From: Pseudomonadota bacterium
Lineage (GTDB): Bacteria; Pseudomonadota; Gammaproteobacteria; Steroidobacterales; Steroidobacteraceae
NCBI GenBank assembly: GCA_021805865.1
Contig: JAJZDX010000009.1
Coordinates: forward strand, 84,811 to 148,810
Length of the DNA: 64,000 nt
Direction: 5' to 3'
Both the position numbers and the translations under genes were made by a program. Of the stretch, positions 2,863 to 4,221 are shown one piece after another. The notes below the pieces were generated by a model. It had not been told where the DNA came from and did no database searches. It worked only from the letters and a program-made list of their open reading frames with translations. Numbering within the stretch: the first letter of the stretch is position 1; each line of letters begins with the position of its first letter.

Positions 2863-4041
2863 ATGCTAAGCGATAGCAAGGTGCGACAGGCCAAGCCCAA
2901 AGACGGCCCCTACAAGCTTGCTGATGGGGGGGGGCTTTATGTCTACGTCAGTCCCACGGGGGCGAAAAGCTGGCGCTATGACTATCGGTTCCATGGGCGC
3001 CGCAAAACCGTCACCTTTGGTTTGTATCCCGAACTTTCCCTGGCCATGGCCCGTGAGCGCCATCATGAGGCGCGCCGGTTGGTGGCCTCTGGATTCGACC
3101 CAGCGAGCAAAAAACAGCAGGACCGCCGCCAGGCCATCAAGGGCGCCGCGAATACCGTTCGGGCGATCGGGGAAGACTGGTACGCCGAACTCTCGCCGCA
3201 CAAGAGCGAGACATGGCGGCAGAACGTGCGCCGCTGGCTCGATCAGCGGATCTATCCGACCATCGGGGAGCGGCCGGCATCCGATGTCACCTCGGCCGAC
3301 GTGCTCGCGCTCGTGAAGGACATGGCGAGGAACCATCCGAAGTCCGCCGAGACCGTGCGGCAGATGCTCTCGCGGATTTTCGTCTATGGCGTGCGCAATC
3401 AGCGTTGCGCGGGCGACCCCGCACATGCGGTGCGAGGCGCCGTCATCGTTCCCCCGGTCGCTTCGTATCAGCCCATCCGGGTCGGTGAAATCCACGGCTT
3501 CCTGGAGAGTTTGCGCGCCTATCAGGGGCGCCGCCCGACCATCCTTGTCGCCGAACTCCTGCTGCTTACCTGCGTGCGCAAAACTGAGCTCACCGAGGCC
3601 CAGGTAAGCGAGATCGATTTAGAAGCCAAGCTGTGGCGTATTCCGGGCGCCCGCATGAAGAACGGCCTGGATCATGTCGTGCCGCTCTCTCGCCAGGCGC
3701 TCGAACTATTCCGCGAGGCTGTCTCGCTTAACTGCGGCTCCCGCTTCCTATTCCCGAGCTTTTCCCGGCTCGATAAACCGATGTCCAGGAGCACGTTGAA
3801 TGTGATGTGGAAACGCTGCGCCCTGGCCACCCCGCCGCATGCGTTGCGCGCGACGTTCTCGACTGCGGCGAACGAGTCCGGGCGCTTCCGGCCCGACGTG
3901 ATCGAGAAGACGTTGGCTCATGTCGAGCGCAATCGGGTCCGGCGCGCCTACAACGCGGCCGCGTATTTCGAGGAGCGACGCGAACTGCTCCAATGGTGGG
4001 GCGACCTTGTAAACTCCAGGCGAACTGAGGATGCGGCATAA
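2863..4041 (+). CDS. Tyrosine-type site-specific integrase (P4-like, DUF4102 N-terminus)
   Basis: LSDSKVRQAKPKDGPYKLADGGGLYVYVSPTGAKSWRYDYR and ALRATFSTAANESG...LAHVERNRVRRAYN. Confidence 0.95.
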   Translation: MLSDSKVRQAKPKDGPYKLADGGGLYVYVSPTGAKSWRYDYRFHGRRKTVTFGLYPELSLAMARERHHEARRLVASGFDPASKKQQDRRQAIKGAANTVRAIGEDWYAELSPHKSETWRQNVRRWLDQRIYPTIGERPASDVTSADVLALVKDMARNHPKSAETVRQMLSRIFVYGVRNQRCAGDPAHAVRGAVIVPPVASYQPIRVGEIHGFLESLRAYQGRRPTILVAELLLLTCVRKTELTEAQVSEIDLEAKLWRIPGARMKNGLDHVVPLSRQALELFREAVSLNCGSRFLFPSFSRLDKPMSRSTLNVMWKRCALATPPHALRATFSTAANESGRFRPDVIEKTLAHVERNRVRRAYNAAAYFEERRELLQWWGDLVNSRRTEDAA

Positions 4042-4221
4042 AGTTTGAATTGCAATTCAAAATATAGAAACTGTGCATTGTGGCCAAGATGCGAGGCGGC
4101 ATAAAGTTTGATGCCGGCATCTAAATGTAGAAACTGTGCATTGTGGCCAAGATGCGAGGCGGCATAAAGTTTGATTCCGGAATCTAAATATAGAAACTGT
4201 GCATTATGGCCAAGATGCGAG
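4033..4221. repeat. Three exact-period 63-bp tandem repeats, each with a different perfect 12-bp palindrome
   Basis: Units at 4033, 4096, 4159; palindromes GAATTGCAATTC, GATGCCGGCATC, GATTCCGGAATC at the same offset; the other 51 columns nearly invariant. Confidence 0.95.

Follow-up and report, generated by a model that had tools for sequence, protein, structure and literature searches.

Genetic setting of the repeats

The 64-kb stretch of DNA analysed here (the window) opens with 2.7 kb of host genes, whose open reading frames read by inspection as nrdR, ribD and ribE. A prophage starts at 2863, and a host GyrB gene is reached by 29.7 kb. The first gene of the prophage encodes a tyrosine integrase with a P4-type arm-binding domain (2863-4041, plus strand; Pfam PF13356 4.8e-27, PF00589 4.2e-21, PF22022 4.7e-19), with relatives that are at most 42% identical. 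It is followed by a repeat array (family A), the first part of a second array (family B), a ParB-like ORF on the minus strand, the second part of B, two terminator-like hairpins and a small AlpA/excisionase-like regulator (5507-5767, plus strand; phrog_66, excisionase and transcriptional regulator, 0.0015). A Toprim primase, an AAA ATPase, a region of short repeats, a serine recombinase and a terminase come next, so both arrays lie at the int end of the element.

Some smaller features of this segment can be noted in passing. Upstream of the integrase, at 2797-2846, there are three TTGACGGTAT boxes (two direct and one inverted), which are likely arm-binding sites of the integrase. The two terminator-like hairpins, at 5407-5496 just 5' of the AlpA-like gene, have different stems, end in runs of eight T and stand 63 bp apart.

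The ParB-like ORF (4360-5079, minus strand; phrog_4715 3.2e-10) contains a helix-turn-helix (HTH) region and has B repeats at both of its ends. Its relatives (P0003-P0005) are 57-63% identical, about 300 aa long and extend further at the N-terminus; here the open frame runs into B units at both ends, and no N-terminal domain is found there. The ORF may be a remnant. In the structural model (pTM 0.32) only the HTH region, the part modelled best (pLDDT about 80), is predicted with any confidence, and the best PDB matches of that region are the HTH domains of Spo0J, Noc, KorB and SopB, all of them weak (Foldseek E of 0.14 or worse). We find no ParA-type partner ATPase among the prophage proteins scanned, which are a subset of the ORFs. 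We also considered whether B is translated as protein repeats: although the frame is open, the model gives the first 69 residues of the long ORF a pLDDT below 50, which makes a coding role for B unlikely. The linker ahead of the HTH holds a perfect hairpin with 14-bp arms at 4953-4982 (CAACCTTAGAACCA-TG-TGGTTCTAAGGTTG).

Palindromes that change symmetrically between repeat copies

Family A consists of three units, each exactly 63 bp long, at 4033-4095, 4096-4158 and 4159-4221 on the plus strand (TRF: 4033-4222, period 63, 3.0 copies, score 301), just as the initial annotation of this DNA had read them from the letters. The first unit overlaps the end of the integrase gene, whose TAA stop codon (4039-4041) lies inside it, again as annotated. 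In the register used there, which starts at 4033, our recount also gives 3 variable columns among the 51 of the flanks; beginning at 4030 adds a fourth, a T/G difference at the integrase end. At an identical offset every unit contains a 12-bp palindrome: GAATTGCAATTC at 4047-4058, GATGCCGGCATC at 4110-4121 and GATTCCGGAATC at 4173-4184. In unit 1 the full palindrome is 18 bp long including flanking bases (TTTGAATTGCAATTCAAA), whereas units 2 and 3 have a T/T mismatch immediately outside the 12 bp, and thus one change at the boundary has no mirror image.

Within the 12 bp, 4 of the 6 palindrome pairs differ among the copies, and all 18 cells are nonetheless Watson-Crick pairs, with no G-U among them, which bears out the annotated matching of changes on the two sides. 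The symmetry continues through the central four bases, and the signal is lost once the pairing partner is slid by one to three columns. To judge it against chance, we place the observed number of changes of each unit at random, with unconstrained substitution, and obtain P = 3.2e-5 for all cells being paired. This model already allows the palindrome its own high rate of change; with the flank rate (3/51 columns) the outcome becomes rarer still. Shuffling the letters pair by pair gives a weaker result (6/500), because there are only three units. Taken by itself, family A is modest evidence.

The outer arms of the A dyad are constant (TTTGA-N8-TC) and its centre is variable, and this dyad is found nowhere else in the 64-kb window. 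With 10.5 bp to a turn of the helix, the period of 63 bp amounts to about six turns, which would put the A dyads on one face of the DNA. The G+C content is 43% in A and 46-50% in B, against 67% for the window.

The same behaviour recurs in two further families of this prophage, B and C, that are unrelated in sequence. Both had been overlooked in the initial annotation, whose description is otherwise accurate; a detector that looks for matching flanks around perfect palindromes that differ returns A, B and C. Family B has five units of about 66 bp, all on the plus strand, in two groups (4308-4430 and 5066-5264) on either side of the ParB-like ORF. Their 14-bp dyads are GTTATCCGGATAAT at 4320-4333 (unit 1, 4308-4373), ATTGTGTTCACAAT at 4382-4395 (unit 2, 4367-4430, central TT unpaired), ATTATTCGAATAAT at 5078-5091 (unit 3, 5066-5131), ATTGTTCGAACAAT at 5144-5157 (unit 4, 5132-5198) and ATTGTTTTAACAAT at 5211-5224 (unit 5, 5199-5264, central TT unpaired). 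Two pairs vary, and both are mirrored (with two and three pair types), while the centre is C-G or T-T and is not mirrored; under the same kind of model the paired cells have P = 2.5e-6. Here too the outer arms are constant, ATTRT-N4-AYAAT with a TTRT-N4-AYAA core (unit 1 is one base off), and the pattern has no other occurrence in the window. The spacing is 62, 66 and 67 bp, without helical phasing.

Family C comprises four hairpins within 9439-9795, namely GGCGCAATCTGCGCC, GACACAATCTGTGTC, GGGGCAATCTGCCCC and one inverted copy. Two plus-strand copies share their surroundings, TCAATC-GGCGCAATCTGCGCC-AATTGA at 9439-9475 and TCAATC-GACACAATCTGTGTC-AATTGA at 9715-9751, and the two stem changes in the latter are mirrored. 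At 9775-9795 (plus strand) a copy with a different stem reads AGTGGGGCA-ATC-TGCCCCACT, and at 9577-9592 a minus-strand element, of which the plus strand reads GGCGCAGATTGCGCC, represents either an inverted copy or a loop inversion. One identical stem is therefore seen with the loop ATC and with the loop GAT. The model P for paired cells is 9e-5, and G-U variants of a pair occur in none of the three families. The hairpins sit inside an open frame (9320-9823) whose product, on visual inspection, looks similar to the linker and HTH of a ParB-like protein; the searches made detected no homologues of it.

The behaviour is restricted to this element

Three copies of A and five of B are present in the genome, all at this locus. 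A sixth match to the B pattern lies on contig 5; it includes three mismatches and probably arose by chance. The detector finds nothing in 132 other loci with a total of 1.38 Mb (about 0.9 Mb of it from the same genome), and we conclude that the behaviour belongs to this element. Together with the P values of the placement model, this control rules out chance as the source of the mirrored divergence that the initial annotation had singled out.

We then ask whether the palindromes accompany some class of gene or element. They do not appear to be a general habit of ParB-like genes, as 30 ParB-type loci from other genomes and six ParB-like loci of phages and plasmids are without them, nor of integrases, with 61 integrase loci equally devoid of such palindromes. 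Related elements that share the primase and AAA genes, in the genus and the family (L072-L077), lack such repeats as well. Searches by pattern are likewise empty: the A flank pattern is absent from 200 other genomes of the family, the B pattern from 386 genomes of the class and the A pattern from 398 genomes of the phylum, and neither A nor B has a match among IMG/VR viral contigs. No DNA match is found in a plasmid collection (query 4030-4430) or in a phage collection (query 4030-5280), and BLAST within the genus gives only weak matches, in the ParB-like ORF or outside the repeat units. The small number of copies and the lack of relatives for A or B are the chief weaknesses of the finding.

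What could keep the palindromes symmetric

Palindromic sites are normally recognised by sequence. In these arrays the flanks are fixed while the palindromes change symmetrically, which allows selection on symmetry to be told apart from selection on sequence. We weigh below what could read such sites and what could keep them symmetric.

Dyad-symmetric binding sites offer a natural point of comparison. Proteins of the ParB superfamily act as dimers on inverted repeats, and the sopC and OB sites consist of inverted repeats within longer iterons (PMC5016525). The known cases, sopC of the F plasmid, the OB (KorB) sites of RK2 and the parS/NBS sites of the ParB/Noc family, resemble the present arrays in placing short inverted repeats inside longer direct repeats (here 3 x 63 bp with a 12-bp dyad in A, and five units with a 14-bp dyad in B), and they are read by ParB-superfamily HTH dimers; the B units flank an ORF with a ParB-like HTH. 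From the binding mode of this superfamily and the build of sopC and OB, B, and by analogy A, can be read as dyad iterons. The likeness has its limits: in the known sites the inverted repeat is conserved, whereas here only the outer arms are constant between copies and the centre shows symmetrical variation; the proteins scanned include no ParA, the ParB-like ORF is without its N-terminal domain, and family C lies in an ORF rather than in a control region, which counts against an iteron reading. The annotation had argued that an operator would keep its bases. As worded this claim is too strong, since the outer arms are kept in A (TTTGA-N8-TC) and B (TTRT-N4-AYAA).

A dimer site alone leaves the mirroring of unread centre bases unexplained, and a second cause must be added. 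Mechanistic copying of one arm to the other, which the annotation had listed among its options, is a candidate cause that fits well. Template switching both creates and corrects paired stems and inverts loops (PMC8794818), and the ATC and GAT loops on an identical stem in C are what it predicts, although an inverted copy explains them too. In such quasipalindrome systems arms are kept identical by copying and loops are inverted, as is proposed here; they differ in chiefly having longer arms, and they do not account for a fast turnover of the centre beside near-invariant flanks.

Our favoured reading, which we hold tentatively and at somewhat less than even confidence, joins the two causes: A would be a short series of tandem sites in duplex DNA, each with dyad symmetry and built like those of sopC/OB/parS, a short inverted repeat within a longer direct repeat, and its mirroring would be maintained by arm-to-arm copying. 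What a homodimer would recognise is chiefly the conserved outer arms, TTTGA-N8-TC for A and ATTRT-N4-AYAAT for B; the likely reader of B is the ParB-like HTH protein encoded between the two groups of B units. Occupied sites might regulate excision or the genes for the integrase and the ParB-like protein. The centre would stay palindromic as a change in one arm is copied to the other, by template switching or palindrome correction during replication, and weak selection for symmetry may or may not add to this.

Copying might also act without any sequence-specific reader, the arms being equalised by strand or template switching in prophage replication and the flanks alike through recent tandem duplication. 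Such a purely mutational origin, which we consider possible though on the unlikely side, covers three unrelated sequences inside and outside an ORF, requires no loop, yields multi-base mirrored jumps such as that between A units 1 and 3, and predicts the loop inversion in C (PMC8794818). Its difficulty is the contrast between the palindromes, half of whose positions differ, and the flanks, with 3 of 51 columns variable: copying alone leaves this unaccounted for and would have to be supplemented by selected flanks or hypermutable centres. Moreover, the arms are very short, and other short palindromes of the genome behave otherwise. Template switching is mostly described for arms longer than 6 bp. 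That some self-templated process, encoded by the prophage or suffered by it, continually rewrites the centres of short palindromes and passes each change on to the other arm, in several unrelated families and not in the host genome, seems to us improbable.

Complementary variation of stems is itself already known. In most GTAG REP families there are sub-families whose stems carry other residues yet stay complementary, and a REP can be repeated in tandem together with the DNA beside it (PMC3733652); this gives the behaviour a precedent, and the annotation's remark that no named repeat class shows it is wrong. One could then imagine single-stranded hairpins that are spread, and amplified in tandem with their flanks, by a Y1 transposase recognising folded DNA, and the genome does hold one Y1 transposase gene. 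We regard such an origin as quite unlikely. The REP/BIME repeats (GTAG, CGTC) are also short palindromes, but the constant GTAG or CGTC tag is absent beside the present ones, A is loopless, and there are 3 and 5 copies at a single locus in one prophage rather than hundreds; the region around the Y1 gene has no similar palindromes. Without a tag, with few copies and at one locus, the A and B arrays are not REPs. Integron attC sites likewise keep their structure under a varying sequence and adjoin a tyrosine recombinase, but here there is neither an integron integrase nor cassettes, and no attC core boxes are apparent.

Selection on pairing in a transcribed RNA with tandem hairpins (a small RNA, or one resembling a type III antitoxin) would produce compensatory pairs, and the intergenic position adjoining int would suit it. 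Unit 2 folds somewhat better than its shuffles (z of -1.9), but units 1 and 3 do not (z about +0.6), and the palindrome of unit 3 is missing from its own optimal fold. At the locus no Rfam match attains its gathering score, with sub-threshold matches only across 3950-5520; the sole match above threshold in the whole window is a tRNA at 63099. In A the symmetry takes in the four central bases, which would form the loop of any hairpin; this and the lack of G-U pairs favour duplex DNA or direct arm copying over RNA, and we rate the hairpin RNA put forward in the annotation as a poor candidate. Recombinase crossover sites are a still weaker one: the tyrosine integrase is adjacent, and imperfect 11-bp arms (ATAAAGTTTGA and CTATATTTTGA) are conserved round a variable N8 centre that would serve as an 8-bp overlap changing with the partner site, yet recombination needs identity of the overlap and not symmetry, B has only N4, the int-proximal end is without a similar site, and the boxes at 2797-2846 look more like integrase arm sites. 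Cruciform signals, also raised in the annotation, we consider extremely improbable; the palindromes are perfect, but at 12-18 bp they give stems of 4-7 bp, too short for extrusion.

Arm-to-arm copying at short palindromes has been proposed for RNA stems and is rarely caught among repeat copies that lie side by side; three unrelated families in one 6-kb segment of a prophage, with none elsewhere in 1.38 Mb, make a natural test case.

Other palindromes and repeats in the window and related elements

Past the primase and ATPase genes, a cluster at 8015-8484 contains tandem repeats of 8 bp (GTGCGGGA), 12 bp (GCATTCCCGCAG) and 11 bp (around CTTCGAAG) as well as inverted repeats, and has the look of an iteron-bearing replication origin. 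Five related elements have a strong hairpin some 40-170 bp 3' of their AAA ATPase gene (8043-8075 in the window, 12457-12480 in L072, 1998-2023 in L073, 9278-9299 in L076 and 6793-6818 in L077), with arms that differ between elements yet match within each, for example AGTGTCCCCC/GGGGGACACT and ATGTCCCCCCT/AGGGGGGACAT. Outside the prophage, the window holds a perfect 36-bp palindrome at 56574-56609 (GCCCGGCCAGGCGCGAGG/CCTCGCGCCTGGCCGGGC).
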